In this document: piece by piece, positions 7,535-30,739 of the stretch
How the letters are laid out: every line of letters begins with the position of its first letter
How positions within the stretch are numbered: the stretch's first letter is position 1
Source of the DNA: a filamentous cyanobacterium Phorm 6
GTDB taxonomy: Bacteria; Cyanobacteriota; Cyanobacteriia; Cyanobacteriales; Microcoleaceae
Length of the DNA stretch: 64,000 nt
Direction: 5' to 3'
Assembly: GCA_003003725.1 (NCBI GenBank)
Contig: PVWI01000001.1
Location: forward strand, 1 to 64,000
Notes under the pieces: generated by a model
Database searches by the model: none
What the model saw: only the letters and a program-made list of their open reading frames with translations
What the model was told of the DNA's origin: nothing
Program-made: the position numbers and the translations under genes

Positions 7535-7561
7535 GTCTGAGTAGGGTGCGTCAGAGTCTAG

Positions 7562-7780: not shown

Positions 7781-7811
7781 ATTTAGGGACAAGGTAAAGT
7801 CAGGAGGAACA

Positions 7812-12895: not shown

Positions 12896-12924
12896 TGCTT
12901 TTGACTCCCTCTATAAGAAAGTGC

Positions 12925-13701
12925 TTACAAAAAAGTTAATAATTGTTGTTGCTGTCTAGTTAAGTATTCTACTAGAGTAACACGCTCGTCAAGAGTTAGC
13001 CCCCACTCGCTAGGCGGAGCCGCCACTGCTTGAATGATTGTTGCTTCACTGACGCTTTCAAGTTCCCGGAGTGCCGAGCTAATCTCATCTGGGGTAAAGT
13101 TGCAATTTTCACACAAATATGAGTTTAATTCAGCTTGGGGTGCTTGTATCAGATCACGCTCTGTCCAATTGGGGCCACCGGGAAAGAAATGACCATGATC
13201 CACCGAGTAAACTAATCGCGGTGGATTTTTCTTGAAAATAAACTGGATGTCGTTAGCATAGACCCATCCGTACAACACAGCAAGCAGAGCAAACCTGGAT
13301 CTATTTTCAGGTTCGCTAGTTGCAATCAAACCACAATCATCACGGCAATCTGGTATAAAGAGAGTAGCGTGTGCTGTGCCTGAAGGAATATGAGAGAGAC
13401 GAGGTTCAATCGCAATAAGTTCAGCCGACACTTCAACAATCTTAGGTTCGCCAACGGGTGCACCTATTGCAAAGCCAATCCTTGCAGTAATCTGGTCATT
13501 TACAATTTGTCTGCCTGCTTGCTGACCTTTAACGACATACTCTCCACCATCATTACACTTAAGCAAAACTGGTTCTGCTTTCGTCCTCCATCCTCTGCGA
13601 AAAGTTGTTGCCATGATGGGTATTCCAGGTTGTGAAAGCGCCTCGTTTAGCTTTCGCTTCCAGTTTTCCCTCGCGTTTTCTCTATTTTCGCTTTTGCCCA
13701 C
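12925..13701 (-). CDS. HipA-like kinase domain protein
   Basis: Resembles the short HipA-like (HipA_2) family: RRGWRTKAEPVLLKCNDGG followed by EYVVKG with the probable ATP-binding Lys, ITARIGFAIGAPVGEPKIVE, and SVDHGHFFPGG in the catalytic region. The open frame starts with GTG at 13701 (258 residues); the ATG at 13614 (229 residues, MATTFRRGW) fits the usual family start better, so the first 29 residues are doubtful. The classical HipA catalytic motif is not obvious, so kinase activity is not assured. It is the first gene of a two-gene unit with DUF3037. Confidence 0.7.
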   Translation of the reverse strand: MGKSENRENARENWKRKLNEALSQPGIPIMATTFRRGWRTKAEPVLLKCNDGGEYVVKGQQAGRQIVNDQITARIGFAIGAPVGEPKIVEVSAELIAIEPRLSHIPSGTAHATLFIPDCRDDCGLIATSEPENRSRFALLAVLYGWVYANDIQFIFKKNPPRLVYSVDHGHFFPGGPNWTERDLIQAPQAELNSYLCENCNFTPDEISSALRELESVSEATIIQAVAAPPSEWGLTLDERVTLVEYLTRQQQQLLTFL

Positions 13702-13782
13702 AAAAAAAAGTATAAAATTTAGGTATATCCTCCCAAATTATCCTATTGCTATCTGCTTTGTCAATTTATTTAACGAAAAAAC

Positions 13783-13811
13783 TTGACGTAATACCCAGAG
13801 CTTAAGATAAT
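13783..13811 (+). promoter_or_regulatory. Candidate sigma-70 type promoter
   Basis: TTGACG (13783-13788), a 17-base spacer and GATAAT (13806-13811) make a good -35/-10 pair pointing towards the structured leader and the 13955 gene, and possibly drmA-drmB. Confidence 0.55.
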
Positions 13812-13836
13812 AAAGAGGAACCTGCGTTATACAAAG

Positions 13837-13917
13837 GATTGGCAAGAAAAGTGAAACTTTATAAATCCCCAGATTTTCGAGAGGCTATCTGGGCGGGTTG
13901 AAGACCTTTTGCCAATC
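13837..13917 (+). ncRNA. Candidate three-way-junction leader RNA
   Basis: Closing stem GATTGGCAA (13837-13845) pairs with TTGCCAATC (13909-13917). Inside it are AAAGT-GAA-ACTTT (13848-13860) and CCCAGAT (13868-13874) with ATCTGGG (13887-13893). All three helices are perfect. The element begins about 25 bases after a promoter-like sequence and ends about 38 bases before the start of the membrane protein, as a 5' regulatory RNA would. It does not match a tRNA. Function unknown. Confidence 0.45.
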
Positions 13918-13954
13918 TCGGTAAAGTAATTAAACTTCAATGAGGTATTACATA

Positions 13955-14656
13955 ATGTTTGATGCTTTTAAATCTTGGCTATCATCTTTAACGACTCAAC
14001 TCCAAACATACCAACCCTTATTCTATATTGTTTTTGGATTAATCACTATTTTTTTTGGATTAGTTAATCTAAGTAAAGTTATTTATGACTGGAATAAAGA
14101 TAAAACAAAAATAACCATTCAACTTAGGCGAGATAGTGTTAGTTTACCAGCCATCCAACAGCCCTCAAGAAATTATTTATTAATTGAAGTTGTAAACAAA
14201 GGTTATAAGGATGTAATAATTAATGAAATAGGAATTGCGGTGTCAGGTAAAAACGATATTAATGTTGTAGATATGCCTTGGACATTTCCTATATTAAAAG
14301 GATATGAAAATAAAATAATGGGAAGTCTGGAATGGGTAGCCATTCCCGGTACAGTGAATCCACAATCTATAGGGATAGCTCAAATTTTATTTTCTAACTT
14401 AGAAGAAGCTTATAAAAATATAAAAAAAGAAAAACAACTGTCGCTTGAAGAGCCAGGATACCTGCGAACACGTAATCTTATCAATGCGTATGAAGAATTG
14501 ATGAAGTCGTATAACGCTAGCACTCAAGTGCTGACGGTCAAACCTTATACAGTGACTACTACAGGTCAGCGTTTTCTTGGAAAAAAAACAAAGATTCAGT
14601 TAGGAAACCTTCATACAGCCGTGCAAGCTACGACTCAAAAAAAAAGATTCCTTTGA
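13955..14656 (+). CDS. Single-pass membrane protein of unknown function
   Basis: A protein of 233 residues from the ATG at 13955, chosen because GAGG lies nine bases upstream; the ATG at 13940 would add five residues. One hydrophobic helix (residues about 22-44, LFYIVFGLITIFFGLVNL) is followed by a mainly beta-stranded soluble domain with a conserved-looking VVNKGYKDVIINEIGIAVSG segment, then a Lys-rich end. I recognise no family. It is AT-rich compared with drmA and is the first gene of the second DISARM half, ahead of drmA by 76 bases. It might tether a component to the membrane (inference). Confidence 0.65.
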   Translation: MFDAFKSWLSSLTTQLQTYQPLFYIVFGLITIFFGLVNLSKVIYDWNKDKTKITIQLRRDSVSLPAIQQPSRNYLLIEVVNKGYKDVIINEIGIAVSGKNDINVVDMPWTFPILKGYENKIMGSLEWVAIPGTVNPQSIGIAQILFSNLEEAYKNIKKEKQLSLEEPGYLRTRNLINAYEELMKSYNASTQVLTVKPYTVTTTGQRFLGKKTKIQLGNLHTAVQATTQKKRFL

Positions 14657-14732
14657 TACAAGTAAGGAATCATTTAGGGATTAAAGTTTGGACTAATTAT
14701 TAAACAATCTAATTAAAGGTAAAGACATATTA

Positions 14733-17700
14733 ATGAATATCAATGCAACCCCGACAACCCCCGCCCAAGTTCGCCAACACCTAATCGACGCTTTACAACT
14801 CGACCTGATCGGCCCCATCCCCGACGACGAAGCCCACGCCGCAGAAATCATCAACCAACCCCCTTCCCGCTGGTATCTCAGCGGTTTTCTCGTACCCTAC
14901 GGGGCCGGCCTCGAACAGCGCAGCGACGACACCAGCAATGACGAACTCGACGAACTCAGTCGCCCCAGTCCCGGCGACGACGAAAACCCCCCGGAAAAAT
15001 CCTCCGCCCGCAGAGCATTTTTTCCCTCTTCAATGGGGCTGAGTTTCCTGGTTCCCAAAGAAGCAACTCACTTCCGGGCGATCGCATCTTGGGGCGACTA
15101 CTCGCCCATTCCCACCGAAGAGGAAAAAACAGAAACCAAACTGCAAAGTCTCGTCTCCGGTGATTGGCTGCGGAAACCTCAACAGGTAGAAGTAGATGTT
15201 CCCATCAAAAGCAGCATCTCGCCCTACACCTTGGATATTCCCGACAGCGGCGGCTTAAAACTCGTCATTTCCGTTCGCCCCGTCTTGTCCCAGATTAAGT
15301 TACCCCCCGGTACCCGTTCCGTCTCCGCTTTCCTTGTCAACTACCGCACTCCCACCACCGACGACTCCTTGCGAGATACCACTTACATCTTCCAAGCAAC
15401 TTTAACTATTCACACCCCCTACCCCCTCGTCCCCCGCCCGAATTTGCGGGGACAAACCGATGATGATTGGGATGAAAAGGTGGCAGACTTGCAGTATCGG
15501 GAAGACTGCGAATTTGCTGTTGGCCACAACATTTCGGCGATCGCCCTCGTCCACTCCGACTCGATTTGCAAGGAAATTCGCACCGCCTGGATACCCACGG
15601 CTGATGTAGAAAAAGTCATCGCGGCTGTTGTACCCGGAACTGAACTGGAAATGGAGGCGATCGCTGCGGCACCCAGTCCCGCAGCTTTGCGGTCAATGCT
15701 AGAGCCAATGGTAACAGCTTACGGCGATTGGATTGCAGACCAGCGGCACAAATTCCCCCTCGATCCCAACCGAGCTCAAATTGCCCAAAAGTTGCTCAAC
15801 CGCGCCCAAGTCGCGCGCGATCGCATCGCTGCGGGCCTCGACGCTATGAATGACCCCGAAGTGTTCGAGGCTTTTAGAATTGCCAATTTGGCGATCGCCA
15901 GATCCATCCGTCAACGCGCCACCCATGACAGTGAGAAAACCCCCGCAGAAATCCACGCCCCCAAATGGCGGCCGTTTCAGCTAGCATTCCTGCTGATGAA
16001 CTTAGCTGGAATTGCCGACCCAGAAATGGGCGATCGGGAAATCGTAGATTTGCTATTTTTCCCTACCGGCGGCGGTAAAACCGAAGCATATTTAGGGTTA
16101 GCCGCATTTACTTTAGTTCTGCGACGGTTGCGAAATCCAGGGCTTAGCGGGGCCGGGGTTAGTGTCTTAATGCGCTACACTTTACGACTGTTAACCTTAG
16201 ACCAACTGAGTCGCGCCGCCACTCTGATCTGCGCTTTAGAGTTAGAACGGCAAAACAATGTTCAAAAACTAGGCACTTGGCCTTTTGAAATCGGGTTGTG
16301 GGTCGGACAAGCAGCCACGCCAAACCGCATGGGACGCAAAGGGGACAACAACCCAGAAAGTGCCCGTACCCGCACCATTGCCTATCAAAACGACGATCGT
16401 AATAAACCCTCACCCATTCCCTTAGAAAACTGCCCTTGGTGCGGTGAAAAATTCACCTATGAATCCTTTAAATTACTCCCCAATGCAGACAACCCCACGA
16501 ATTTAAGCATCCTCTGCAAGAACCGCAAACGCCTTGCCAATGGCCAACCGCAATGTACTTTTAAAGGAAATAATCCCTTGCCCATTGTTGCGGTTGATGA
16601 CCCCATCTATCGTCGTGTCCCCTGCTTTATCATCGCCACAGTCGATAAATTTGCCAACCTACCTTGGGTCGGAGAAACTGGGGCTTTATTCGGAAAAGTC
16701 GATCGCTATGATGACAACGGATTTTACGGGCCGGCTACTATTGGCATCGGTCGGACACTAGAAAAACCTCTCCTACCACCCGATTTAATTATACAAGATG
16801 AATTGCACCTAATTTCCGGGCCGTTAGGCACGATGGTCGGACTTTATGAAACGGCTATTGACGCCTTATCAGCTATTGACAAAAATGGCAAAAAAATCTA
16901 TCCTAAAATAGTTGCTTCAACTGCAACCGTGCGACGAGCAACAAAACAAATTCGCGCCTTATTTGGTCGCACCGAAGTCGATGTTTTTCCGCCTCCTGGC
17001 CCAGACCGCCGCGATTCATTTTTCGCTAAAACTGTCCCCGCCACGGAACAAAACCCCCGCACTTATATCGGTATTGCCGCTCAAGGTCGCAGCTTAAAAG
17101 TCATATTGCTGCGGACTTATTTAGCTGTATTAGGGGCGGCTCAAAAACATTGGGATGCCAACGGCGGCGCAAGGAATAAAAATAATCCGGCTGACTCTTA
17201 CATGACCTTATTGGGTTATTTTAACTCCCTGCGAGAACTGGGGGGAAGTCGGCGCATTGTTGAAGATGAAGTCAAATCTAGATTGTTAGGATATAGCCAG
17301 AGAAAACGGGAAAATGAGCAGTCAGGATGTTTTGCTAACCGCCGAATTAACGATGAACCTTTAGAATTAACTTCTCGCGTTAGCACTAGCCAAGTTTCGG
17401 AAGCAAAGCGCTGTTTAGCCTTAGCTTTTTCAGACGCACACCGGGTGGACGCTGCACTAGCAACTAATATGATTTCTGTGGGTTTAGATATCACTCGCCT
17501 CGGATTAATGGTCGTATTAGGACAGCCAAAAACAGCCGCCGAGTACATTCAAGCAACCTCGCGAGTAGGGCGAGACGAACAGCGACCGGGATTAGTGGTA
17601 ACATTATTAAATGTACACAGACCGCGCGATCGCTCTCACTACGAACGTTTTGGCGCGTGGCACAACACTTTTTACCGGGCAGTCGAAGCAACCAGCGTCA

Positions 17701-18164
17701 CGCCTTTTTCCCCCCGCGCCATTGACCGAGGAATTGCTGCGATTACCGTTGCTTTAGCGCGTCTAGGCAATCCAGAAATGACCGCACCTTTAAATGCAAT
17801 TAAAATTATAGAACAGCGCTCAAATTTAGATTTTGTTGCTGATATCATTGCCCAGCGTTCTGAAATCCACGACCAAGACCGAGACACCGAAGAAACCGAA
17901 GAATTGCGTCTGAAACTAAAAGAGCGAGTCAAAGATTTGCTGGACACTTGGCAATACATAGCTTCGGAAAAAGGCAGTTTGCAATATCAGCAAGAAGTGG
18001 GAGTTGCACCGCCTTTATTATTTGACCCCCTTGACCCAGACTTGCAGAGGCAACCGCAACTCGCTAAAAAGTTTAAAGCACAGCGTAGTTTGAGAGATGT
18101 GGAACCTGTTGTCAATTTGTGGGTGAAAAATCCAGATGGCTTAGAGATTGATGAGGAGGATTAA
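14733..18164 (+). CDS. drmA: DISARM DrmA, superfamily 2 helicase
   Basis: The core DISARM helicase, 1143 residues, which with DrmB forms the complex that loads on phage DNA ends. Walker A FFPTGGGKTEAYLGL is at about residues 441-455, the motif II box DELH at about 690, and the second RecA domain carries TRLGLMVVLGQPKTAAEYIQ and TSRVGRDEQRPGL. A Cys-containing insert (CPWCGEKF about residue 568, with further Cys) could bind zinc. The ATG at 14733 has AAAGGTAAAG upstream. It is GC-richer than the preceding membrane-protein gene. It is followed by two palindromic repeats and drmB. Confidence 0.93.
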   Translation: MNINATPTTPAQVRQHLIDALQLDLIGPIPDDEAHAAEIINQPPSRWYLSGFLVPYGAGLEQRSDDTSNDELDELSRPSPGDDENPPEKSSARRAFFPSSMGLSFLVPKEATHFRAIASWGDYSPIPTEEEKTETKLQSLVSGDWLRKPQQVEVDVPIKSSISPYTLDIPDSGGLKLVISVRPVLSQIKLPPGTRSVSAFLVNYRTPTTDDSLRDTTYIFQATLTIHTPYPLVPRPNLRGQTDDDWDEKVADLQYREDCEFAVGHNISAIALVHSDSICKEIRTAWIPTADVEKVIAAVVPGTELEMEAIAAAPSPAALRSMLEPMVTAYGDWIADQRHKFPLDPNRAQIAQKLLNRAQVARDRIAAGLDAMNDPEVFEAFRIANLAIARSIRQRATHDSEKTPAEIHAPKWRPFQLAFLLMNLAGIADPEMGDREIVDLLFFPTGGGKTEAYLGLAAFTLVLRRLRNPGLSGAGVSVLMRYTLRLLTLDQLSRAATLICALELERQNNVQKLGTWPFEIGLWVGQAATPNRMGRKGDNNPESARTRTIAYQNDDRNKPSPIPLENCPWCGEKFTYESFKLLPNADNPTNLSILCKNRKRLANGQPQCTFKGNNPLPIVAVDDPIYRRVPCFIIATVDKFANLPWVGETGALFGKVDRYDDNGFYGPATIGIGRTLEKPLLPPDLIIQDELHLISGPLGTMVGLYETAIDALSAIDKNGKKIYPKIVASTATVRRATKQIRALFGRTEVDVFPPPGPDRRDSFFAKTVPATEQNPRTYIGIAAQGRSLKVILLRTYLAVLGAAQKHWDANGGARNKNNPADSYMTLLGYFNSLRELGGSRRIVEDEVKSRLLGYSQRKRENEQSGCFANRRINDEPLELTSRVSTSQVSEAKRCLALAFSDAHRVDAALATNMISVGLDITRLGLMVVLGQPKTAAEYIQATSRVGRDEQRPGLVVTLLNVHRPRDRSHYERFGAWHNTFYRAVEATSVTPFSPRAIDRGIAAITVALARLGNPEMTAPLNAIKIIEQRSNLDFVADIIAQRSEIHDQDRDTEETEELRLKLKERVKDLLDTWQYIASEKGSLQYQQEVGVAPPLLFDPLDPDLQRQPQLAKKFKAQRSLRDVEPVVNLWVKNPDGLEIDEED

Positions 18165-18206
18165 TTCGCCCACGTCGCGTCAGATTGAGCATCAAGATTA
18201 ACTCGC

Positions 18207-18343
18207 TTAGGGTGCGTCAGAAAAAAAGATTATTTAATTGCGAGCAAATTTCTCTCTGACGCAGCCTACAAATAAACTCAGTAGGGTGTATCAGAAAAAA
18301 AGATTATTTGCCTAGCGGAAGATTTCTCCCTGACGCACCCTAC
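18207..18343. repeat. Two palindromic repeats between drmA and drmB
   Basis: Units at 18207-18269 and 18281-18343 share TCAGAAAAAAAGATTATTT internally and have TAGGGTGCGTCAG-type left and CTGACGCACCCTAC-type right arms. A third, half unit runs from 18353 to 18387. Same family as the repeats at 7562-7780 and 6323-6385. Confidence 0.88.
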
Positions 18344-18411
18344 TAAGTAACTAATTGCGAACAAATTTCCGGCTGACTTACCCTACCAACTACAAACTAA
18401 CTAAAATCAAT

Positions 18412-20250
18412 ATGAAAATCCCATCAGGACAAATTCGCCAAAGTCAAATTTTAACCACCTTCGGGCCAGGGGCAATGGTCGATTTGCCCAACTATTCGAT
18501 TATTATTGGCGGGTTAAACCACTGGCGGGGCGATAAATCGCGCATCCACGAAGAGCGCCTGGAAGAGCGAGTTGCCGAAATTCTCGGCCTGGCCCGCGTT
18601 GCCCTGTACGCTCCCCCTGTAGATGAACAAGACCCCAGCGCCCCTCGCACAGGCATCACCGCCTTCACATTTCCCACTTGGTTTGTAGCGCAAGAGGATA
18701 GCACTTGGAAAGCTTCCAACGGCAAAGAATACCGCACCAGACCTTTAATTCGTTGGGGGAGTTTAGTTAAGGGAAAATATCTGAATGCTGAGAGGAAGAA
18801 AAAGCCTGTTGTTCCGGTGCGCTTCGTGCAAGCTTGCGCCAACGGACATATCAGCGATATCAATTGGAATGCTTTTGCCCACAACAATTTGGACGCTATA
18901 TGCCGAGGGCAATTGTGGCTCGATGAAAGCGGTTCTGGCAATGATTTCGCTGAAATCTTCGTCCGGTGCGAAGCTTGCAAAGCCCGTCGCCCCCTTTCTG
19001 ATGCCACTGTCCCGTATTCTAAAGTGCTCGGCAGGTGCTTGGGAGAGCGTCCTTGGCTCGGCCCTGTTGCAAAAGAACCCTGCCTTTCTAAAGAGGGCGA
19101 TCGCCCGTTGTATAATCGACTGTTAGTGCGATCGGCGAGTAATGCTTATTTTGCTCAAGTGCTTAGCGTGATTTCTCTGCCGGACACCGACGCCAAACTC
19201 AGGGAAGCTGTCAATCAAGTTTATGAAGATTTCCTGCAATATGCTGAAGACCTAAATGATATCAGAAAAGAGCGAAAAAAACAAAAAGTTCTTAATGCTT
19301 TAGAAGGTTTAAGCAACGAAGCGGTTTGGGCAGAAATACAGCGAAGGAAGGCAGGATTTTCTAATACAAAAAAGAGCATTAAGCAAGTGGAGATTGAAAC
19401 TTTACTTGCTAGTCCTGATGAAGTTGGGGAGGATGTGTCCGAAGGAGATTTTTACGCCCGCGCTCGCAAGTTAGAGGGGCTAAATCCTCTTGCAACAGCT
19501 CGCATTGAACGCATTATTCTAGTGCATCGGCTCCGAGAAGTCGTGGCGCAAGTCGGATTTACTCGTTTTGAAGCAGCTATGCCGGATATTGAGGGTGAAT
19601 TAGATATTAACGTGCGACGGGCAGCTCTTGACATCGATCCGACGTGGGTACCGGCGATTGAAAATAGGGGTGAAGGAGTATTTATAGCCTTTAAAAAAGA
19701 GGCAATTGACCAATGGCTGAAGCAAAAAGCTGTTCGAGAAAGAGGAGAAGAGTTGCATAGGGGTTTCCAGAAATGGTGTAACACTAGAGGGATTCCGCAG
19801 GACAAAGCCAACTTTCCGGGGTTGCCTTACATTATGTTGCACTCCCTGTCTCACTTATTAATTACGGCTGTTTCTCTGGAATGTGGCTACGCGGCTAGTG
19901 CCATCCGCGAACGCATTTATGCTGGGGATTCAGGCTACGGTATTTTGCTCTATACCGGCACCTCTGGTAATGATGGAACTTTGGGGGGATTGGTGCAAAT
20001 TGGCAAACGCATTGAATTACTGTTAATCAGCGCATTGGAGTTAGGAAGGCTTTGCTCTAACGACCCTGTGTGTGCTCAACACGGGCCCGAAAATGATGCC
20101 GAAGACCGTTTCTTACATGGGGCTGCTTGTCATGGGTGTTTGTTGATTGCTGAGACTTCTTGCGAACGGCGCAACGATTTTCTCGATCGGGCTTTGGTGG
20201 TAAACACAGTTAGTGGTAACGGTGCTGCTTTTTTCCCCGATGAATGGTGA
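18412..20250 (+). CDS. drmB: DISARM DrmB, DUF1998 protein
   Basis: DISARM DrmB, 612 residues from ATG 18412. The frame is open to a TTG at 18355, but that start falls in a repeat and the family begins near KIPSGQIRQSQI. The C-terminal DUF1998 part is clear: LHSLSHLLI, YAASAIRERIY, GILLYTGTSGNDGTLGGL and several Cys/His (CSNDPVCAQH, AACHGCLLIAETSC) that probably bind zinc. A second Cys pair (VRCEACKARRP) lies near residue 182. DrmB is the partner of DrmA in DNA binding. No drmC follows; the next gene is on the other strand. Confidence 0.92.
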   Translation: MKIPSGQIRQSQILTTFGPGAMVDLPNYSIIIGGLNHWRGDKSRIHEERLEERVAEILGLARVALYAPPVDEQDPSAPRTGITAFTFPTWFVAQEDSTWKASNGKEYRTRPLIRWGSLVKGKYLNAERKKKPVVPVRFVQACANGHISDINWNAFAHNNLDAICRGQLWLDESGSGNDFAEIFVRCEACKARRPLSDATVPYSKVLGRCLGERPWLGPVAKEPCLSKEGDRPLYNRLLVRSASNAYFAQVLSVISLPDTDAKLREAVNQVYEDFLQYAEDLNDIRKERKKQKVLNALEGLSNEAVWAEIQRRKAGFSNTKKSIKQVEIETLLASPDEVGEDVSEGDFYARARKLEGLNPLATARIERIILVHRLREVVAQVGFTRFEAAMPDIEGELDINVRRAALDIDPTWVPAIENRGEGVFIAFKKEAIDQWLKQKAVRERGEELHRGFQKWCNTRGIPQDKANFPGLPYIMLHSLSHLLITAVSLECGYAASAIRERIYAGDSGYGILLYTGTSGNDGTLGGLVQIGKRIELLLISALELGRLCSNDPVCAQHGPENDAEDRFLHGAACHGCLLIAETSCERRNDFLDRALVVNTVSGNGAAFFPDEW

Positions 20251-21073: not shown

Positions 21074-23650
21074 CTAATCTAACTTCTTCACTTTTTTAAG
21101 TGTACCATCTTCCTTAAGTTGGATAACTTTAACTTGAACAATTTGATTCTCTAATAAGTATTTTGAATTCTTTGGTTCTTTCTCTGTTAGCTTAATTGTT
21201 CCGACAATCTCATAAGTAACTTTGTTTCCTTTAATGCTAGTAACCTTCGCTTCTAAAACTTGTCCGACCCGAAAAGAATGGGTAGGAGAACTTACAGAAA
21301 GTTCTTTTTGTTCCTGTTCTGGTATTCCTAATTTTTTAACGATAGCGAGATATTGTTCGCGAATTTCTAAATTATTGGGATGTTCTTGTAGCCAAGCAGC
21401 CGTTTGGGAAAGTGCGTCATTCTGCTGTTCTACAGTTCCACATTTTTCTACTAATTTAAGGTACTGCTGACGCACATCAAAATCCTCAGTATGTGCTTGC
21501 AACCAAGCAGCCGTATAAATTATAACCTCTTGCTCTTCTTGTAGAATTCCTCTTTGTAAAACACTTTTTAAGTAGTCTTTTAATCTATCATAATTATTTG
21601 GTTCTTTTTGCTTAAAAATATAAAAACCATATCTCCAATTTATAGCGTTAATTAGTAGAGTTTGATCGTAGTTTTTTGAAACTCCCCACAAGTCAGCGAC
21701 GAGATCGAAACTCCCATCCGAGTTCTGACACCAGCCTAGATCGCAATCCCCTTCCAGAACAGCCACAATATCAGCCTGAGTTCTTATGTTTTTACTACCC
21801 CGCACATAATCATTAATTTTAACCTTAATACCTAGAGCGCTGATGGCAGCTTTCAAAATTTCCTTATCTTTGATTTTTGTACGGAGAGTAGAGAAATGAG
21901 CTGATAAATCGCTCCAAGTCGGAGGTGTGGCTGCTGGATGTTGAACAATTACTGGCAGCCAACTCGCACAGGGATTTACACCTTCTAATTTTTGCAACAT
22001 TTCCCTTGCCTGTTTTACTGAAAGGTACAAAGACATACCTTTTGAAAAAGCACCAATAAAATACTCTAAAAAGTGTTGGGCTAATACATCACTCACCAGA
22101 TCTCGCATGGTAATAATATGTGGAATCCCTAAGTCACCAAACTCTGCTTTACCTAAGCCTACTCCTTCGCAAGTATTGAATATACCTAGTTGTAATCCAC
22201 GTTCAATAGATGGCTTAAAACCATCTTTTAGTTCGCTGATGGTTAAGCTTTCCTGTGGATTTATACGCAGGATTCCAGTTTCAACATCTACTGTTCTCAA
22301 ACCATGTCCGGCGAATAAAAAAATATCCCAACCCTTTTCATCCCAAAGCTTTTTATATAGATTTTCTTTGCTTGGTTCTACCATAAACTCTATTTCTGCG
22401 TCTAATTTTTCAATCGTTTTTCTCTCAAGTTCAACATCTATTGATTTAGTGTCAACCAAAAGAGCTAAGATGCGGGCTTTTAAACGAGAAGAGTATAGTT
22501 TTTTCGCTGGTTCAGTTACTCTAGCACTGAGAGCCACTTCGCTTTGAGGAAAATGGTCTAAAATATCCCAGAGATGCCAAGGCAATCGGCGCAATAAGTT
22601 ATCTTCAGCTTTAATTATTACTCGCACTCGATTGGAACCTGACAAATTCTTAATTAGTGCATCTTGAATAGGGTGAAATAATTTTGATTTAAGCCAATTA
22701 TTTAGAGCTTCTTGTAACAATTGGGCTGCAATCTGAAGATCGTCACGCGAAAAGTTAGTTTGTACTGCTGCATTTGGTTCAAGCCTTACTAAATTTTGAT
22801 TCATCCGATAAAGGAATTGCCACTTTTGATAGCGATCGATAATTTCTGAGGCTAAGGGAAGCCTACCTCTCTGCTTAATGAAGGGGATATCACCTTCTAA
22901 GCTAATTTCAAGCAACACATTAAATCCGTTATCAACATCACCAACGAATGTGAGAAGAGCTAACTTTTCAACTATTGGCTTTGGTTTAAAAGCATAGTAA
23001 CCTGAAGGAACATTAGTAATTTTTTTGCTATCTTGTTTGTTAGGTTTATTATCATCTTCACTCTTTCCTTTCCTAATCTCATTAACCAAAACCAACAGCG
23101 GCTCAAATTCTACTAAAGGTTCTGCAAAAGCTTCTACCAATGACACCAACCGGAGTTGTTCCGACTTATCTTGTTTATAAGCTTGTTCGAGCATCGCTCT
23201 TAACTCTTGTGCAGCCTCAGTGGGGCGCACATACGCCAAAGCTGTCCACCGCTGCGCCTGAGCAAAATCCCGCACCTCTTGGTCATTACTCTGAAGTTGC
23301 TGTCGCACATAAACTAATAGAAAATCAGACAACTCATTAATCCGCTGCTGCCCAAAATTCTCATTCTCTTTCAACCGATTCAACAGCGAATTTCGTACCG
23401 CTGTATCCATTTCATAGAGTTCTCGCCCTACCTCATCGCACAAACTCGAAAGTAGCAAATCCGCCACAGCTACCCAAGGAATTCCTAACACAAATCCGTG
23501 AATATCTCGCTGAAAATTAGCCCACAACTTGTATAACAAATCCGGTGTTAAAGCCAAGGGAAATGCCGCATGACACGCAAAAATTAAGTGCGTTCTTCCA
23601 AAACGCTTCTCGAAAGCTTCAATTCGTCTGCGGGCTACTTCAGGTTTCAT
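21074..23650 (-). CDS. CHAT protease with Ycf35-like, TPR-like and S1-like domains
   Basis: An 858-residue multidomain protein, last gene of the CHAT-iSTAND/MoxR/vWA operon. Residues 1-220 form a helical domain (FGRTHLIFACHAAFP). The array-typical CHAT module follows, with LRRLPWHLWDI; the catalytic pair is His in FAGHG (about 450) and Cys in NTCEG (about 494). Residues about 580-690 closely resemble Ycf35/DUF1257 (AHFSTLRTKI, CDLGWCQNSDGSFDLVADLW), followed by two TPR-like repeats and a C-terminal S1/OB-like domain (FRVGQVLEAKVTSIKGNKV). In vWA-MoxR ternary systems a third protein carries the effector; this one would be a protease effector possibly directed to RNA or ribosomes (inference). 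Confidence 0.8.
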   Translation of the reverse strand: MKPEVARRRIEAFEKRFGRTHLIFACHAAFPLALTPDLLYKLWANFQRDIHGFVLGIPWVAVADLLLSSLCDEVGRELYEMDTAVRNSLLNRLKENENFGQQRINELSDFLLVYVRQQLQSNDQEVRDFAQAQRWTALAYVRPTEAAQELRAMLEQAYKQDKSEQLRLVSLVEAFAEPLVEFEPLLVLVNEIRKGKSEDDNKPNKQDSKKITNVPSGYYAFKPKPIVEKLALLTFVGDVDNGFNVLLEISLEGDIPFIKQRGRLPLASEIIDRYQKWQFLYRMNQNLVRLEPNAAVQTNFSRDDLQIAAQLLQEALNNWLKSKLFHPIQDALIKNLSGSNRVRVIIKAEDNLLRRLPWHLWDILDHFPQSEVALSARVTEPAKKLYSSRLKARILALLVDTKSIDVELERKTIEKLDAEIEFMVEPSKENLYKKLWDEKGWDIFLFAGHGLRTVDVETGILRINPQESLTISELKDGFKPSIERGLQLGIFNTCEGVGLGKAEFGDLGIPHIITMRDLVSDVLAQHFLEYFIGAFSKGMSLYLSVKQAREMLQKLEGVNPCASWLPVIVQHPAATPPTWSDLSAHFSTLRTKIKDKEILKAAISALGIKVKINDYVRGSKNIRTQADIVAVLEGDCDLGWCQNSDGSFDLVADLWGVSKNYDQTLLINAINWRYGFYIFKQKEPNNYDRLKDYLKSVLQRGILQEEQEVIIYTAAWLQAHTEDFDVRQQYLKLVEKCGTVEQQNDALSQTAAWLQEHPNNLEIREQYLAIVKKLGIPEQEQKELSVSSPTHSFRVGQVLEAKVTSIKGNKVTYEIVGTIKLTEKEPKNSKYLLENQIVQVKVIQLKEDGTLKKVKKLD

Positions 23651-23661: not shown

Positions 23662-25107
23662 TTATTCATTCCCAACAAAAACCGAATTCTGACTTTTTCC
23701 CCGCAACAAGCCGATCGCCTCCTGCAATCCTCGCCGCGCCATCTCAAACATCGGCACTAAACGCGCCACCTTACCCGCAGTCGTCCCCTCCCAGCGCGAT
23801 TCCGGCATCGGATTTAGCCAAGCTACATACCGCACCTTTGTCTTAATTTGCTGGAGAAACGCCGCCGTCAACTCCACCCTTTCCTCACTGTAACCCCCGC
23901 GAGCCGCCCCAGCATCGCTAAAAATTAACATAGCAGACCTCTCAGGCCGCAGGTTAGCCAGCAAGCGATCGATTTTCTCGGCTTCCAACTGATAGGGGTC
24001 ATGGTAGAGATACTCCACCGGACAATTTTGAAAATAATAAATGCCAGCAGTCCCCAAACGCCCGCCTCGCACCGCCGTTTCTGCCAATCGCTGGGACAAG
24101 TCGTGGAAGGGAACCATCGAACCGTCGCGATCGATTAATAACAGCAATTGCGATCGATTTACCCGACGCGGCACCAACACCGGACTTAACAAAATGCCCT
24201 GTCGCCCAATCTGGTTAACTGTGGCTTCCACATCCAATTCTACAGGTGGCCCTTCCCGCACGGGACGGCGCAAGTAACGCCAACTTTGCTTCATCTGTCG
24301 GCGCGTCACTGGAAAATATTCGGATGTCAGGATGAATTGGCGATCGGAAATTGCCTCATATTTATTAGTAGCTTGCATCACTGCTTTTGCAGCTTGCACC
24401 TCATCTTCTATTGCCTCTATTAATTCAGGATGCGGGGCAGAGATAATTCGTTCGCTTGTTTGCTCAGTTAGTTTTGGTGCTGTTTCAATTATACCAGAAT
24501 CCTCTGTTTCCGGTGCAGAAATCTCTGGTTTTTCTGGGATTGCTGGTATAGCCTCCTGACTCTCTTTGACAATCAGGTCAAAGTGGTAGTCAAATAGGCG
24601 CTTATCCTCAGTAGATTTTACCCATAAAGTTTTGCACAGGCGGTATAAAGAAGTGCGATCGCTCGTTCCAAAACCCTTTTGTAAAGCTTCCAGTAACAGC
24701 TTATATTCACCGATGCCAAGGGGAAATCCAGCTTCTCGCAGTTGACTAAAAAGCTCAATCAGGGGTAGTTCCTCCACAATAGGCTTCACTAGAAAACCAA
24801 CGGGAACGGGCGGGTCATCCTGCTTCCTTCTTAAGTATCGCTTGATGACTGACTGAAGATTATTTTTTCCAACCTCTTCGCCAAATAATATTGAAAGTTG
24901 CCTCCAGAGTTTAGATCCAATGTGCATGATATGACCCGGTGCACGATGGCTGATTTGGGCTATTTCCTGATAGGATTTTCTTTCCCAAGACAGGCGAAAG
25001 ACAATTTCTTGAACTTCGTTAAAACGCTCGCCATCCATTACAGACTTTACAATTGCCAGTGCTTCATCAACGGTAATTGCTAAATCAAAATTCAGATGTT
25101 TAATCAC
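23662..25107 (-). CDS. vWA domain protein with N-terminal VMAP-type HTH
   Basis: A 481-residue protein of the vWA-MoxR type. Residues 1-95 form a helical HTH-like domain (YQEIAQISHRAPGHIMHIGS) that matches the N-terminus of the 62195 NB-ARC protein and is known from vWA-MoxR-associated proteins. Residues about 310-440 form a vWA domain with a variant metal site D-R-D-G-S instead of D-x-S-x-S, plus LRPERSAMLIFSDAGAARGG. The start is GTG at 25107, overlapping the MoxR stop (GTGA), so translation is coupled. The role is likely substrate recognition for the MoxR ATPase. Confidence 0.85.
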   Translation of the reverse strand: MIKHLNFDLAITVDEALAIVKSVMDGERFNEVQEIVFRLSWERKSYQEIAQISHRAPGHIMHIGSKLWRQLSILFGEEVGKNNLQSVIKRYLRRKQDDPPVPVGFLVKPIVEELPLIELFSQLREAGFPLGIGEYKLLLEALQKGFGTSDRTSLYRLCKTLWVKSTEDKRLFDYHFDLIVKESQEAIPAIPEKPEISAPETEDSGIIETAPKLTEQTSERIISAPHPELIEAIEDEVQAAKAVMQATNKYEAISDRQFILTSEYFPVTRRQMKQSWRYLRRPVREGPPVELDVEATVNQIGRQGILLSPVLVPRRVNRSQLLLLIDRDGSMVPFHDLSQRLAETAVRGGRLGTAGIYYFQNCPVEYLYHDPYQLEAEKIDRLLANLRPERSAMLIFSDAGAARGGYSEERVELTAAFLQQIKTKVRYVAWLNPMPESRWEGTTAGKVARLVPMFEMARRGLQEAIGLLRGKSQNSVFVGNE

Positions 25108-26045
25108 AATTCACCCCCAGCCCGCCTTTGCTTAGCATAGCGATTGTAATCATCCCAGCTTTTCAACAGCACGCCCGGATACAAAAGTTTTTTACCCAAT
25201 TCATCCAGAACCTTATCTTCTGGATAATGGCGCAGTATCCGAAACCAATCCATTAATTCACTGGTACTCACTTTTTTTCCAGCTTCTCCCTTATCTTTCC
25301 GCATCTCCTCACGCAACTGCAAAAACCTGTCAATAATTGCATTTACTAGCGCTTCAGGAGATGCCACAAAGTGAGCATTGATAATTTCAATTAACTGCTG
25401 GCGCTTGGGAAATTCAAGATAATGAAACAAGCACCGCCGCAAAAAAGCATCGGGCAAATCTTTCTCATCATTGCTAGTAATAAACACAATCGGTGTTGCC
25501 TTAGCTTGAATTTTATCTCCCGTTTCTTCGATGGCAAACCGCTGTTCGTCAAGTTCCAAGAGCAAATCATTAGGAAAATCAATATCAGCCTTATCTATTT
25601 CATCAATCAGCACCACCGTCGTTTGTTCCTTCAGAAAAGCTCGCCCTAACGGCCCCCATTTAATGTAAGTCTCAGATTTATCAATTTCTTGAATTTTATC
25701 TTCGCTGAGACGGCCGGCAGCCGCTAATTGAGCATCTCGCAAACGGCCCACAGCATCGTAGGTGTAAAGTCCATCTTTTGCCCTGCTTGTAGACTTAATA
25801 TTCCAAGTTTCATAAGGCAGTCCTAACTCATAGGCAACAGCACGGGCTAACTTAGTTTTGCCACACCCCGGTTCGCCTTTAATCAGCAGGGGACGTTCTA
25901 ATTGAATGGCTAAGTTAACAGCTTCAATTAAATCGTCGTCAGGAAGATAAGGATAAAATATTTGACCGTTTTCATCGACTTCTCCTAGTTGAGGCTGTAC
26001 TTTACCTGTGTATTTCAAGCCTTCTCTGTTCAGTATTTCAGCCAT
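25104..26045 (-). CDS. MoxR-family AAA+ ATPase
   Basis: A 313-residue AAA+ ATPase. Walker A GEPGCGKTKLARA is at about residues 56-68. Walker B VVLIDEIDKADIDFPNDLLL, the E-L-D-E-Q-R-F hairpin, and sensor PIVFITSNDEKDLPDAFLRR are all canonical for MoxR proteins, as is the C-terminal helical lid. MoxR ATPases act as remodelling motors with vWA partners; here the partner is the next gene. It starts inside the end of the CHAT-iSTAND gene (16-base overlap) and overlaps the vWA gene by four bases. Confidence 0.93.
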   Translation of the reverse strand: MAEILNREGLKYTGKVQPQLGEVDENGQIFYPYLPDDDLIEAVNLAIQLERPLLIKGEPGCGKTKLARAVAYELGLPYETWNIKSTSRAKDGLYTYDAVGRLRDAQLAAAGRLSEDKIQEIDKSETYIKWGPLGRAFLKEQTTVVLIDEIDKADIDFPNDLLLELDEQRFAIEETGDKIQAKATPIVFITSNDEKDLPDAFLRRCLFHYLEFPKRQQLIEIINAHFVASPEALVNAIIDRFLQLREEMRKDKGEAGKKVSTSELMDWFRILRHYPEDKVLDELGKKLLYPGVLLKSWDDYNRYAKQRRAGGEL

Positions 26046-27895
26046 ACTTTCTCCCAGTCATACCAATTACAATCGCACAATTCACAAATCCTGTAGATAG
26101 CTGCTTGAGGCAAACCGCCATCGCTGTTTTCCAGAATATATCGCACTGACTCCTCAACTTTAGCAGTCAATTTAAGGGGTAAGTCATCAAGAGCATTTTC
26201 AATCCAAAATGTCAAATCTTGTTCGCACAGTAGAGTAATTTTGGGCAGCTTAACGGGGATGTGCGGTTCCCAAGTGGGGGAGAGTGTTTCAGCAAAATCG
26301 ACACAATCCGATTCTTCAACATAACCGCTATGGTCAATTAAAAACATTAGTAACCCAGACGGCGATTGAGTTACGCCGGACACGCTTTTTACGAGTGGCA
26401 ACCAAAATTGTCCCATAAATTGACTCATACATTCCTCTGGCATTTCATCGAGTCTATCGAAGATTAAAACCACAGTTCTATTTTGACATAATTGAGCAAC
26501 TTTATCTATAATTTGTGTCTGTGAAGGTTGATTAATTAAACCGACACGACCGCCTAGTTCTTGCCACAAAGCTTTCGTATAAGTAGCGCGAGATATTCTA
26601 TTGATTGTCACTGAAATTACTTTGGCATTTGTCCAATGAGGAACCTGTTTCATCAGCCGATTTAACAGCCATTTTTGACCGCTGTCTTCTTCGCCATGAA
26701 TCAAATAAGCACCGATGGGATGCTGTTCAACAAATGTTCGGAATAATTTAACTTGATGAGTATAATTTAACCGCTGTAAAGCTTGGTGAAGTTTATCATA
26801 AGATTGTTGAGGTGGAGGTGAAGATAAGTCAGTGGTAGTTGGCATTTTCTGTTCGACTGGAATCCTCCGTAACTGTTCCCATGTAGGGGGTATCATAGCA
26901 GGATTTTGGTAGATAACAGGCAACCAATTAGCACAAGGAAACTCATTACCTAGTTCTTCCCGTAATCTATTTTTAGCCTCCTTGACTGCTAAATATAAAG
27001 TTTGACCGTTTTGGGAAAAAGCTCGTAAAAAATGCTTCAAAAAATCTTGAGCCACTTTATCTGGGATAGGTTGACGCATCACGATTACTTGCGGAATATT
27101 CAAGGCGGCTAAGCTTCTAGCTAATCCTAAGCCATCGCAGGAATTGAATATGGCTAACTTCAACCCCCGATTGATGGCTGTTTTGAGTCCTTCTTGTAAT
27201 TCTTCTATTGTCAAGAATTCATGATTGTTTATGTAAATGCGTCCGGTTCCTTGTTCAGTTTTACTATGTCCCGCAAAAAAAAGAATGTCCCAATTTTCCT
27301 GCCAAAGCTGAGTGCTGATTTCTGAGCGAGGGCGTTGGCATAAAAATAGCGGTTCTTCTACGTTAGGGAGTTGTTTAATTACTCCTTTGTCAGGTTCAAG
27401 ATCAATTCCCGTACTATCGCCGATAATGGCTAAAATCCTAATCTTTTTATTCAGCGGACTGTTGATAAATTCATACTCTGGCAAGCTGAATGCCATTTCA
27501 GCTTGTGGGTAAATTTGAAAAAAATCCCAAAATTGCCAAGGTATCTGTTGCAGTTCCCACAATTCAGTTTGAAAAATTACGCGGATTTGATCTTTATGAG
27601 TGCAGTAGGATAACAGTTTGTTCCAGTCCGAATAAAATGGTTCTGATTTCAACCAATCATTAAGAGTATTACTGAAAGCTTGAGAGGCTGTCTTCCAAGA
27701 CCTCGATGGAGTTGGAAAGCATTTATCGAGCCATTTGCTATAATCGTCAACAATCTCAGGTTTTTCTGGCAGCTTGGTGGGCAGTGCCTTTTGATAAGAC
27801 TTATTATCGTCTTCGAGCCGCAATGTTATGCTGTTAAAACCTAGATTGAGGTTTCCCGAACCAAAATTGATAATAATTAATTTTCCTATACCCAT
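26030..27895 (-). CDS. CHAT protease fused to an inactive STAND-like domain
   Basis: A 621-residue protein, first gene of the four-gene operon. The N-terminal part is the array CHAT module (GKLIIINFGSG, LQQIPWQFWDFF, IRILAIIGDSTGID); catalytic pair His210 (FAGHS) and Cys253 (FNSCDG). Residues about 385-610 look like the iSTAND domain of vWA-MoxR systems: the P-loop is degenerate (HGEEDSGQKWLL lacks G-K-S/T spacing) while a Walker B-like VVLIFDRLDEMPEE is kept. It may signal through the domain rather than hydrolyse ATP (inference). The end overlaps the MoxR start by 16 bases. Confidence 0.85.
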   Translation of the reverse strand: MGIGKLIIINFGSGNLNLGFNSITLRLEDDNKSYQKALPTKLPEKPEIVDDYSKWLDKCFPTPSRSWKTASQAFSNTLNDWLKSEPFYSDWNKLLSYCTHKDQIRVIFQTELWELQQIPWQFWDFFQIYPQAEMAFSLPEYEFINSPLNKKIRILAIIGDSTGIDLEPDKGVIKQLPNVEEPLFLCQRPRSEISTQLWQENWDILFFAGHSKTEQGTGRIYINNHEFLTIEELQEGLKTAINRGLKLAIFNSCDGLGLARSLAALNIPQVIVMRQPIPDKVAQDFLKHFLRAFSQNGQTLYLAVKEAKNRLREELGNEFPCANWLPVIYQNPAMIPPTWEQLRRIPVEQKMPTTTDLSSPPPQQSYDKLHQALQRLNYTHQVKLFRTFVEQHPIGAYLIHGEEDSGQKWLLNRLMKQVPHWTNAKVISVTINRISRATYTKALWQELGGRVGLINQPSQTQIIDKVAQLCQNRTVVLIFDRLDEMPEECMSQFMGQFWLPLVKSVSGVTQSPSGLLMFLIDHSGYVEESDCVDFAETLSPTWEPHIPVKLPKITLLCEQDLTFWIENALDDLPLKLTAKVEESVRYILENSDGGLPQAAIYRICELCDCNWYDWEKVWLKY

Positions 27896-28075: not shown

Positions 28076-29965
28076 TTAAGAACGAGAAGCGTTCAATGCA
28101 GCCCGAATTCCATCAACTTGCACACTCCGCAGCGCGATCGATCGCGGGTCAACCCGATGGTGTACAGTACCGCAGACGGGACATTCCTCCCGACTCTTTG
28201 CCGTCAACCAAACGCTTTGATAAGCGTACTGTCCCGGCGTATCCCCAAATACCCCTGGATAAAACCAATAATTCGGAACCATCGACAGCGTGAGATAATT
28301 TAATCCCCCATCGATCGCCGGATTCAAGAAACCTTTAAGTTTCGCCTCAGCATCCTCCGGCAACAGCAGCGACAGAGCCATTTTCACCGCGACACTGGTA
28401 ACATGGTGAATATCCGCTGCGATCGCCACTTCACCCATCACTCGACCGTTATTCCCGTAGTCTGCCTCCACACTCACCCGTCCCAAATCCGCTTCGGCTT
28501 TGTGGCGGTTGGCCGTAGCACAAAGATAGCAAGGAGTGCGATCTGGGATAGTCACAATTACCTCTCCTCCTTCCGCACCTTTGTAAAGCCCGACAAACAA
28601 AGCAGGTTTGTGGTGAAAATAAGCAAAGCGGTTGAGAATCCGCTGGGCGGCGGGGTCATCGGTAGTAGCAACTATCAAGTCGGCTTGTTGCACCAAAGCA
28701 TCAAAGGTTTCAACCTCATAGTCTGACAAGCTTTTAGGCTGTACCGTCAATTCCAACAGCGGGTTGATGTGCAGCAGTCGCTTCGCCAGCGCTTCCACTT
28801 TGGGACTACCCAAATCGGTAAAATCGTAGGTAGTGCGGCACAGATTCGCTGTTTCAACGGTTTCTGGATCGATGAGAGTGAGAGCACCGACACCGCTGCG
28901 AACCAGTTGTTCGGCGAAGTAGGAACCCACAGAACCTGTCCCCGCAATCAACACCCGTTTGGTGCTGATGTGCTGGCTGAGAATTCCTTGACTGCGCGCA
29001 AATAATCCTTGCTGGATTTCGGCGGCGGCAATTTTGGGGTCAACGCCCGAATAGCAACCACTCCAGCCAGCCAAGCGCGCGCGATCCGCGTCGGCTGTGA
29101 TTGGGGACTTTCCCAAAGGGCCGTACACCTTCTGGTAGGGGCCAGAACCTGCGATCGCACTTTTGACTGCTGTTAACAAACGGTCTTCTGGTGGCGTTTC
29201 CAACGACCAATCTAACTTGATTTCTTCTGTGTTTCCGCCCTCTGGTGTTACCATCAGCAGAGGTGGCGTGACGGGATAAGACTCGCTGACGAGAAACAGC
29301 AGTTCCAAACCGCCGTCGAGAATAACGCGACCGGCGGGTATGGCCTGTCCTTCAATCTCGGTGATAAATACTTCCGGTGGTTTACTGCTACCAAAAGTAC
29401 GGCAAAGTTGCTGTAGGTTTTCCAACAGCGGTATGCGTTTGGGTGCAGCCGTCGGTTCTAGTGTTTGCAGGATACGGGGTAAATCGCGATCTGACACTTC
29501 CTTGACTGGCATCATTTCTACTCGCAAATAATTGCGATCGCGGGAAGCGACATAACAGGAAATTTTACCTTGTGCGATCGGCAATTCATGTTCGCGCAAT
29601 TGCCCCCAAGGACGCTGTAAAGTGACGATCGGGGCTACAAAGTAGGGAATGTGAGGGTTGAGGTTCAGCCCTTCTAGCATCGCAGTTTCATCGGGGCCGG
29701 AAGGACGGTCTAGACCGCCTGGGTGCGAGTGGATAACGCCTTTAAACTCCAGTCCTTGATTGAGTTCTAGCTGCTGCACCCGCTGAGTTAATTGCGGGGA
29801 TGGCAAGTAGCTAGCACCGCTGGTATGGGCTTCTTCGTCCAAAAGAAAGCGGGTGATGATTGGCTGACCTACGGGGCCTAGAATCGCCCCTCCGCGTTCG
29901 GGAGGATGGTTGGCGATCTCAGTTTCAATGTCGTGCAAAACTGACTGTGAAATGTATAACATCAT
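28076..29965 (-). CDS. JAB protease / RWD-E2-like / E1 (ThiF) fusion
   Basis: A 629-residue ubiquitin-like pathway protein. Residues 1-125 form a JAB/JAMM metalloprotease with all ligands: Glu23, His79-x-His81, Ser89, Asp92 (HSHPGGLDRPSGPDE), expected to remove ubiquitin-like tags. Residues about 190-275 look like an RWD/E2-like fold (SESYPVTPPLLMV then LDWSLETPP) without a catalytic Cys. Residues about 325-600 are an E1-like ThiF domain with GTGSVGSYFAEQL at 342, TLIDPETVE and R-x-x-Y; paired C-x-x-C (CYLC at 479, CPVC near the end) probably bind zinc. A stand-alone E2-like gene lies upstream. No ubiquitin-like modifier gene is visible nearby. Confidence 0.88.
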   Translation of the reverse strand: MMLYISQSVLHDIETEIANHPPERGGAILGPVGQPIITRFLLDEEAHTSGASYLPSPQLTQRVQQLELNQGLEFKGVIHSHPGGLDRPSGPDETAMLEGLNLNPHIPYFVAPIVTLQRPWGQLREHELPIAQGKISCYVASRDRNYLRVEMMPVKEVSDRDLPRILQTLEPTAAPKRIPLLENLQQLCRTFGSSKPPEVFITEIEGQAIPAGRVILDGGLELLFLVSESYPVTPPLLMVTPEGGNTEEIKLDWSLETPPEDRLLTAVKSAIAGSGPYQKVYGPLGKSPITADADRARLAGWSGCYSGVDPKIAAAEIQQGLFARSQGILSQHISTKRVLIAGTGSVGSYFAEQLVRSGVGALTLIDPETVETANLCRTTYDFTDLGSPKVEALAKRLLHINPLLELTVQPKSLSDYEVETFDALVQQADLIVATTDDPAAQRILNRFAYFHHKPALFVGLYKGAEGGEVIVTIPDRTPCYLCATANRHKAEADLGRVSVEADYGNNGRVMGEVAIAADIHHVTSVAVKMALSLLLPEDAEAKLKGFLNPAIDGGLNYLTLSMVPNYWFYPGVFGDTPGQYAYQSVWLTAKSREECPVCGTVHHRVDPRSIALRSVQVDGIRAALNASRS

Positions 29966-30002
29966 GGTTTTCAGTTGATAGTAGGTAAATTTTGGGAACC
30001 CA

Positions 30003-30064
30003 GAAACCGGGTTTTTGGCTAAATACTTGGTTGCAGCCGACAGATGCGGTAAAAACCCGGTTTC
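30003..30064. repeat. GAAACCGGGTTTTT palindromic repeat
   Basis: GAAACCGGGTTTTT at the left and AAAAACCCGGTTTC at the right, 62 bases overall. It lies between the E2-like and JAB-E1 genes and is the first of a tandem pair. Confidence 0.88.
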
Positions 30065-30085
30065 TTTGGTCTGGATGGGGGGCGA

Positions 30086-30148
30086 GAAACCGGGTTTTTG
30101 GCTAAATACTTGGTTACAGCCCGCAGATTTGCTTAAAAACCCGGTTTC
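30086..30148. repeat. GAAACCGGGTTTTT palindromic repeat, second copy
   Basis: Same as 30003-30064, including an identical GGCTAAATACTTGGTT interior segment, 63 bases. The tandem pair occupies most of the gap between the E2-like and JAB-E1 genes. Confidence 0.88.
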
Positions 30149-30181
30149 TTTGCTCGGAGTGGATCGGCTGCGATCTCGTTT

Positions 30182-30739
30182 TTAGAGGGTGTTGTCCGGG
30201 AGGTTGTTGATGGAGAATGGGAATAGATCGGTACGCAGATAACTGCTGAAGCCAGTTGCCCAGAGGACTGATTTGGCAAAGGCTTGTTCTAGGGTGGGCA
30301 AGCCGCCTGCATCGCCGAAGCAGATGCGACCATCGCTAAACAGGTGGGCATCGTGGACATCGAATTTGCCGGCGACTGCTGGAAACAAAACCATCACTTG
30401 GTATAGGCTGCCGTCGCTGTAAGCGAACATGGTATACTGGTCGCCGAGCTCGCTGGTGATGCTGTATGTCCAACCTGTAACGCCGCTGACGGACAGTTCC
30501 TGAGTGTTGTTGGGGAGTTTTTGAGCTACAATTTGGCGATCGGCTGTCACAGTGGCTGCGAAGGTTTTCTGGGGAACGCGGGATAGTTGGCGTTCTGTAC
30601 CGGGTTGGGGGCGGAGGATGATGTTACCTTCGGAGTCTACAAACACGCTGCGATCTGTTGCATTGGGCAAGTCGGTGCCGCTGTGTTGGTTGGTGAGTAC
30701 GCGGTTTCTGACTTCATTGAGATCTACTTGGTTCGTCAT
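30182..30739 (-). CDS. Stand-alone prokaryotic E2-like protein
   Basis: A 185-residue protein. Residues about 88-160 carry the E2 signature of bacterial ubiquitin-like systems: a strand pair (YTMFAYSDGSLYQVMVLFP), then H-x-F-S-D-G-R-I-C-F-G with His132 and Cys140. Cys140 is the only Cys in the protein and sits where the E2 active-site Cys is expected. The first 80 residues are a separate unassigned region. It lies upstream of the JAB-E1 fusion on the same strand, with two palindromic repeats between. It should receive a ubiquitin-like protein from the E1 and pass it to a target; target and modifier are unknown. Confidence 0.75.
   Translation of the reverse strand: MTNQVDLNEVRNRVLTNQHSGTDLPNATDRSVFVDSEGNIILRPQPGTERQLSRVPQKTFAATVTADRQIVAQKLPNNTQELSVSGVTGWTYSITSELGDQYTMFAYSDGSLYQVMVLFPAVAGKFDVHDAHLFSDGRICFGDAGGLPTLEQAFAKSVLWATGFSSYLRTDLFPFSINNLPDNTL

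Follow-up and report, generated by a model that had tools for sequence, protein, structure and literature searches.

A locus of the filamentous cyanobacterium Phorm 6 raises the question of what two adjoining genes coding for E1-like, E2-like, and JAB domains might conjugate, given that a preliminary description saw no modifier gene beside them. The locus lies within a window of 64,000 nucleotides (positions 1 to 64,000 of contig PVWI01000001.1), which is the whole stretch of DNA analyzed here. Checking of the open reading frames revealed a two-gene cassette on the minus strand, in which a gene for a JAB/RWD-like/E1 fusion protein of 629 aa (28076-29965) accompanies a gene for an E2-like protein of 185 aa (30182-30739), the latter composed of an N-terminal module and a UBC-fold domain. 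Both frames are as originally described, one chain uniting a JAB, an RWD-like, and a ThiF/E1 part and the other being a separate E2-like protein; they are backed by homologs, conserved residues, and AlphaFold models and, for the fusion, also by Pfam matches. The intergenic spacer holds two copies of an ~71-nt direct repeat (AACCGGGTTTTTGGCTAAATACTTGGTT; 29993-30162), which is not conserved as a part of the cassette, and the spacer is just ~10 to 20 bp long in some other lineages.

The N-terminal part of the fusion protein (residues 1 to 145; 29531-29965, minus strand) is a JAB domain with a Prok-JAB match in Pfam (residues 18 to 100; E = 1e-10). Its JAMM motif, E...HxH(7)SxxD, is made up by E23, H79, H81, S89, and D92, and all five residues are invariant in 13 divergent fusions and nearly so when split forms are added, which bears out the complete JAMM site of the preliminary description. 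The middle segment (residues 179 to 290; 29096-29431, minus strand) contains the sequence SYPVTPPLL (residues 229 to 237), with invariant prolines P231 and P235, as well as a conserved W253, and has no conserved cysteine. In the AlphaFold model of the fusion (pLDDT of 86), this segment is predicted with high pLDDT as helix-strand-strand-strand-YPxxPP-strand-helix, an order as in E2/RWD domains. It gave no independent fold or profile match, the structural matches of the fusion mainly covering the E1 part, and its profile showed no similarity to that of the cassette family's own E2. The predicted topology is consistent with an inactive E2/RWD fold, so that the segment is a possible pseudo-E2; of the earlier proposal, the motif and the absence of a conserved cysteine stand.

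The C-terminal domain (residues 314 to 604; 28154-29026, minus strand) is a ThiF/MoeB-type E1 adenylation domain, as previously proposed, with a Pfam ThiF match at residues 331 to 544 (E = 6e-36) and structural matches to MoeB, ThiF, and UBA5 at a Z score of ~26; BubCD (a JAB-E1 protein) and MccB are also listed. In fold, it is nearest to MoeB/ThiF, and by profile, it is nearest to the E1 profiles of CBASS; the E1-E2 profiles of PADLOC match best. The GxGxxG motif, D366, N374, R377, K389, D436, and the zinc cysteines 479, 482, 595, and 598 are invariant in the same 13 divergent fusions and nearly so when the split forms are included. A census of cysteines in the alignment found no other conserved cysteine in the E1 domain, and the column of the MoeB catalytic cysteine holds none. 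C376, considered as a catalytic cysteine, was rejected: it sits in the NLxR motif, and most other lineages have Ser, Ala, or Gly in its place. Since the ATP-site residues are kept and no cysteine beyond those of the zinc site is conserved, the sequence of this E1 looks adenylation competent but devoid of a thioester cysteine. Transfer to the E2 would therefore have to proceed by direct attack of the E2 on the adenylate or by way of a different nucleophile.

The E2-like protein has 9 close and about 18 distant homologs, belongs to no Pfam family, and has no significant sequence match in the PDB. Its linker and E2/UBC domain together span residues 62 to 176 (30212-30556, minus strand). The sole cysteine, C140 (codon at 30320-30322, minus strand), lies in the sequence HLFSDGRICFG and is the predicted active-site residue: all of the 19 divergent sequences compared share P120, H132, C140, and W160, and in a weak profile match to E2s, C140 is aligned with the catalytic cysteine. 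The PADLOC E2 match is weak as well. The AlphaFold model has a pLDDT of 83 to 94 at residues 71 to 170 (41 to 72 over the first 60 residues), and all 50 of the structural matches listed for residues ~59 to 182 (VIA) are to E2/UEV proteins or to proteins with a domain of this type, such as Cap2. They are headed by the CBASS E2 8yjy_B (Z of 8.0, rmsd of 4.5, 118 aligned residues) and include the UEV domain of TSG101 (Z of 8.0), Cap2 (Z of 7.2), and UFC1 (Z of about 6.8). Foldseek searches with the whole model gave no significant match. Although a Z score near 8 is middling, the list of matches is unmixed and hence supports the UBC fold, so that the separate E2-like protein with a single cysteine claimed at the outset is upheld in both fold and active site.

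The genes adjoin each other in all of the cyanobacterial relatives found, and the dN/dS ratios, where estimable, are ~0.05 to 0.24 for the E2 module, the E2 domain, JAB, RWD, and E1; this selection, together with the constant adjacency of the pair, places the cassette far beyond chance. The JAMM residues, the E1 ATP site, and the His and Cys of the E2 are kept from cyanobacteria to Myxococcota, Chloroflexota, Actinomycetota, Pseudomonadota, Verrucomicrobiota, and Planctomycetota. Judged from these sequence features, the pair is likely a conjugation cassette of some kind, of the bacterial E1-E2-JAB type.

Searches with the E2 in a set of 99 related genomes (98 besides its own) retrieved nine other copies in 8 of the 98, in each case with the pair adjacent and on the same strand, and an even sample of the phylum yielded no further carrier among 386 genomes. 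A JAB-RWD profile scan of 84,980 species genomes found 25 loci, in Calothrix, Anaeromyxobacter, Thermoflexus, Anaerolineaceae, Kineosporiaceae, Acrocarpospora, Streptomyces, Akkermansiaceae, Hyphomicrobiales and other Alphaproteobacteria, Planctomycetota, and Babeliaceae, and in nearly all of them an E2-like gene directly adjoins the E1/JAB gene. Carriers amount to 1 of 301 sampled genomes in Chloroflexota, 3 of 346 in Actinomycetota at the strict cutoff (two of these being split or distant), and 10 of 117 in the Anaeromyxobacter order. The three-part fusion described earlier does exist but is one of several arrangements: besides JAB-RWD-E1, we found JAB-RWD with a separate E1 (L041 and L042), JAB-RWD with a module-RWD-E1 protein (L040), and JAB with RWD-E1 (L043). 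The GC content of the gene pair in Microcoleaceae (47 to 53%, against 38 to 45% in the flanks) and the patchy spread suggest horizontal transfer, and a serine resolvase gene just upstream of the cassette in two loci (L042 and L045) fits a mobile element. Searches of plasmids and of viral contigs with the E2 gave no match, and a Paenibacillus plasmid match proved to be an ordinary thiamine ThiF; a search of viral contigs with the fusion retrieved one phage-like contig (L074). From its sequence record, the cassette is rare, patchy, and probably mobile.

Several of these loci show further associations. On the phage-like contig, a JAB-RWD-E1 protein and an E2-like protein without the cysteine (16-2366) occur beside tail genes, with a tape measure protein at 7647-9644. 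In an Anaerolineaceae genome (L038), the gene (4157-5527) immediately upstream of those for the E2 and the JAB-RWD-E1 protein codes for a ClpB-type AAA+ ATPase joined to an E2-like domain that has no cysteine, and in Calothrix (L032) an AAA ATPase gene lies just upstream of the cassette. A Babeliaceae locus (L047, 9042-13508) has one run of genes for a small E2-like protein, a JAB protein, an E1, a Cys-rich (RING/treble-clef-like) protein of 176 aa, and a HerA-type ATPase. In an actinobacterium (L107, 3944-12509; with E2 and JAB) and on a gut contig (L112, 569-6305), an E1 is encoded next to FtsK/SpoIIIE-like and small helical proteins reminiscent of type VII secretion; these two apparently represent another, FtsK-linked E1 system.

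Where, then, might the modifier be? The preliminary description, which saw no modifier gene, may be wrong on this point, as the E2 itself carries a candidate at its N terminus. Residues 1 to 61 of the E2-like protein (30557-30739, minus strand) form a module with the consensus DLNxxR...VxVDxxGxI...LSxVPxxxFA, here ending in LSRVPQKTFA, which is under purifying selection (dN/dS of 0.05 to 0.24) and is followed by a linker looser than the module itself. It has no Pfam match and resembles nothing known; AlphaFold predicts, at low confidence (pLDDT of 41 to 72), a helix followed by short strands, and the end is FA rather than GG. This module is separable in other lineages. The E2 of all 10 Anaeromyxobacter-type operons is without it, and there a separate module gene of 61 to 70 aa stands between the genes for E2 and JAB-RWD-E1; six of these free modules, all ten of which come from one clade, end exactly in VFA-stop, and four end 2 to 4 residues later (VFAAP, VFAAGQG, VFAAPRS, and VFAAPLR). 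A further free module protein of 83 aa (L049) ends in VMAGA. Three actinobacterial operons (L039, L048, and L106) have two tandem modules in front of the E2, and the locus L040 has one module on the E2 and a second on the RWD-E1 protein; the tandem copies share the ...FA or ...MA type of end, and in fused modules the next residue is mostly A, S, or G. All 30 listed instances of the module were verified verbatim against the DNA, and the small protein of the FtsK-linked locus L107, which is more distant and uncertain as a module, was kept apart. The free forms are nested among fused forms in the E1 tree, and hence the module has probably been separated at least once. Most carriers have the module, or its set of copies, once per genome; further copies in the Phorm 6 genome, sought as substrates, were not found. 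A Multi_ubiq (PF14452) gene, considered as a hidden source of the modifier, is absent from 23 of 24 carriers, including the Phorm 6 genome, and the single match is on another contig of its genome (G458).

On the basis of these observations, a pathway can be conceived in which the E1 domain would adenylate the C terminus of a small modifier, C140 of the E2 would accept the modifier and pass it to a target, the RWD-like segment would serve as a noncatalytic E2-fold scaffold between the protease and the E1, and the JAB domain would mature the modifier and later remove it again. The modifier would be the 61-residue module, freed by JAB after ...KTFA (F60-A61), and other lineages would supply the same module free, from a small gene of its own, or in tandem. 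This choice is favored by the non-beta-grasp tags of CBASS, the ...VFA ends of the free modules, the A, S, or G at the fused junction, the tandem junctions, and the precedent of Ubl-E2 fusions; the E2-tethered module has a little under an even chance of being the modifier. The abrupt C termini may reflect compact operons, as the E2 genes also end abruptly. As a whole, the locus is best, if tentatively, explained as a horizontally spread, self-contained E1-E2-JAB conjugation cassette with the E2-fused module as its modifier. The more specific claim, that of a pathway with an ~61-residue, non-beta-grasp, Pup-sized tag ending in -Phe-Ala, borne before its own E2 or in tandem and freed by the JAB of a JAB-RWD-E1 protein without a thioester cysteine, is more conjectural still. 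We found no earlier description of the module in the literature, and JAB-RWD-E1 fusions may have been covered before, e.g., in the survey of Burroughs 2011.

The main rival to the module as modifier also takes the pair for a conjugation cassette. Like the N-terminal extension of Ubc12, which binds to its E1, the module might be a docking or scaffold element that joins the E2 to the JAB-RWD-E1 protein, the true modifier being the C terminus of another cell protein, as in type II CBASS. The fusion of the module to the E2 in most lineages, and to both the E2 and the RWD-E1 protein in L040, agrees with such a role, which would also conserve the module under the purifying selection seen; no beta-grasp partner was found nearby, and the precedent of a non-Ubl tag in CBASS serves this alternative too. 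A docking arm should be tethered, yet the module is free in the 10 Anaeromyxobacter-type operons and in L049, and it is tandemly duplicated in three other operons with the same ...FA/...MA type of end. On balance, we regard docking as somewhat unlikely.

Two further explanations depart from this scheme. The E1 could be a MoeB/MccB-like enzyme that serves sulfur or amine chemistry by adenylating the module or some peptide, the JAB domain being a processing protease and proteins not being conjugated, as might be expected from a fold closest to MoeB/ThiF, the presence of MccB among the matches listed, and an E1 without a thioester cysteine; the occurrence of an E2 with invariant His and Cys beside the E1 nearly everywhere, and the lack of recurrent sulfur-transfer or cofactor genes among the cassette neighbors, make this improbable. 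The idea advanced in the preliminary description, that the cassette tags or primes adjoining CHAT/STAND proteins, drew on a proximity that is real: the window has CHAT genes on both sides of the cassette, and most other Microcoleaceae loci have them no more than a few kilobases away, which is above a rough expectation of <10% (39 CHAT matches in a genome of 6.64 Mb). CHAT neighbors are found mainly in Microcoleaceae, however, and their partners differ from locus to locus; three Anaeromyxobacter carriers have zero CHAT genes, other distant carriers have no listed CHAT match near the cassette, and in Calothrix the distance is ~27 kb. A CHAT association is therefore rejected as a general feature of the system, and we consider the tagging or priming of these proteins very unlikely.

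The surroundings of the cassette in the window contain other conflict-related genes. A complete class 1 DISARM system (DrmD, 4244-7534; DrmMI, 7743-12002; DrmA, 14733-18164; DrmB, 18355-20250) spans 4244-20250, 8 kb from the cassette, which therefore lies in a defense-rich region and may itself act in defense. Genes for a CHAT-iSTAND protein, a MadB-like MoxR/AAA ATPase, and a VWA (SAV_2336-type) protein follow one another at 23662-27895; this row is conserved in another locus (L014) and resembles the vWA-MoxR conflict systems of Kaur 2020. The protein encoded at 21074-23650 combines CHAT and DUF1257 with a C-terminal match to the PADLOC profiles of Csx21, which is associated with type III CRISPR (E of about 1e-24).

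Should the module prove to be the tag, enzymes of the ubiquitin type would here act on a small tag that is unrelated to ubiquitin and is provided by their own E2. The machinery of E1, E2, and JAB would then have an evolution separate from that of the ubiquitin fold, a link would exist between Pup-like tagging, CBASS cyclase conjugation, and ubiquitination, and the pair would offer a compact two-gene model system. Even with the module as a docking element, the cassette would represent a widespread unannotated family, whose E2 protein has no Pfam match.

Among known systems, the type 6e/Bub (bacterial ubiquitination-like) operons combine a polyUbl, an RWD-like protein, and a JAB-E1 protein (Iyer 2006, PMC1779556; Citrobacter BubCD, PDB 9ea4). 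As in these operons, the cassette has JAB and E1 on one chain and a Cys-less, RWD-like component, and BubCD is among the structural matches of its fusion. Unlike them, it has the RWD-like segment inside the fusion, a Cys-bearing E2, and a genome without a Multi_ubiq Ubl. Cyanobacteria also have the 6e/Bub kind, in an Oscillatoria plasmid operon, which we infer to be of one kind with BubCD; the E2 and module profiles of the cassette gave no match to the Bub-like proteins encoded there. The Bil system (BilABCD) shares with the cassette the logic of a tag, an E1, an E2, and a JAB protein but differs in BilA, a double ubiquitin-like protein whose reactive C-terminal residue is Gly, and in BilD, which has a catalytic cysteine (PMC11354881). 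In the FtsH ternary systems, a Ubl is fused to the E2, and the JAB protein has been proposed to free it, alongside an E1 and a RING protein (Kaur 2020, PMC7159879); the candidate tag of the cassette likewise precedes the E2 in the fusion, but a beta-grasp Ubl, RING, FtsH, and EAD1 were not found in the cassette.

With type II CBASS (Cap2/Cap3 and the stand-alone CBASS E2), the cassette has in common the presence of E1, E2, and JAB domains, the top fold match of its E2 (8yjy), and a candidate modifier that is not a known Ubl: the CBASS modifier is not a beta-grasp protein and may end in Ala, as the module ends in FA. Cap2 attaches a non-beta-grasp cyclase by the Gly/Ala at the C terminus of the cyclase, and a tandem fusion is cut by Cap3 at this position (PMC10097602); in Bacillus cereus, the cyclase tail is KPGGFA, whose Ala forms the link to PspA (PMC11153139). 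In the plasmid CBASS operons examined here, the cyclases end in ...ASA, ...KGFG, and ...PQG. The order of the cassette fusion differs from that of CBASS, its E1 lacks the conserved catalytic (thioester) cysteine, and Pfam and PADLOC scans of the neighbors on both sides found no CD-NTase or SAVED effector. Since the polyUbl and the CD-NTase, a defining feature of each system, are missing, the cassette falls outside both; we file it as a system of the E1-E2-JAB kind that would work like 6e/Bub and type II CBASS and is a member of neither.
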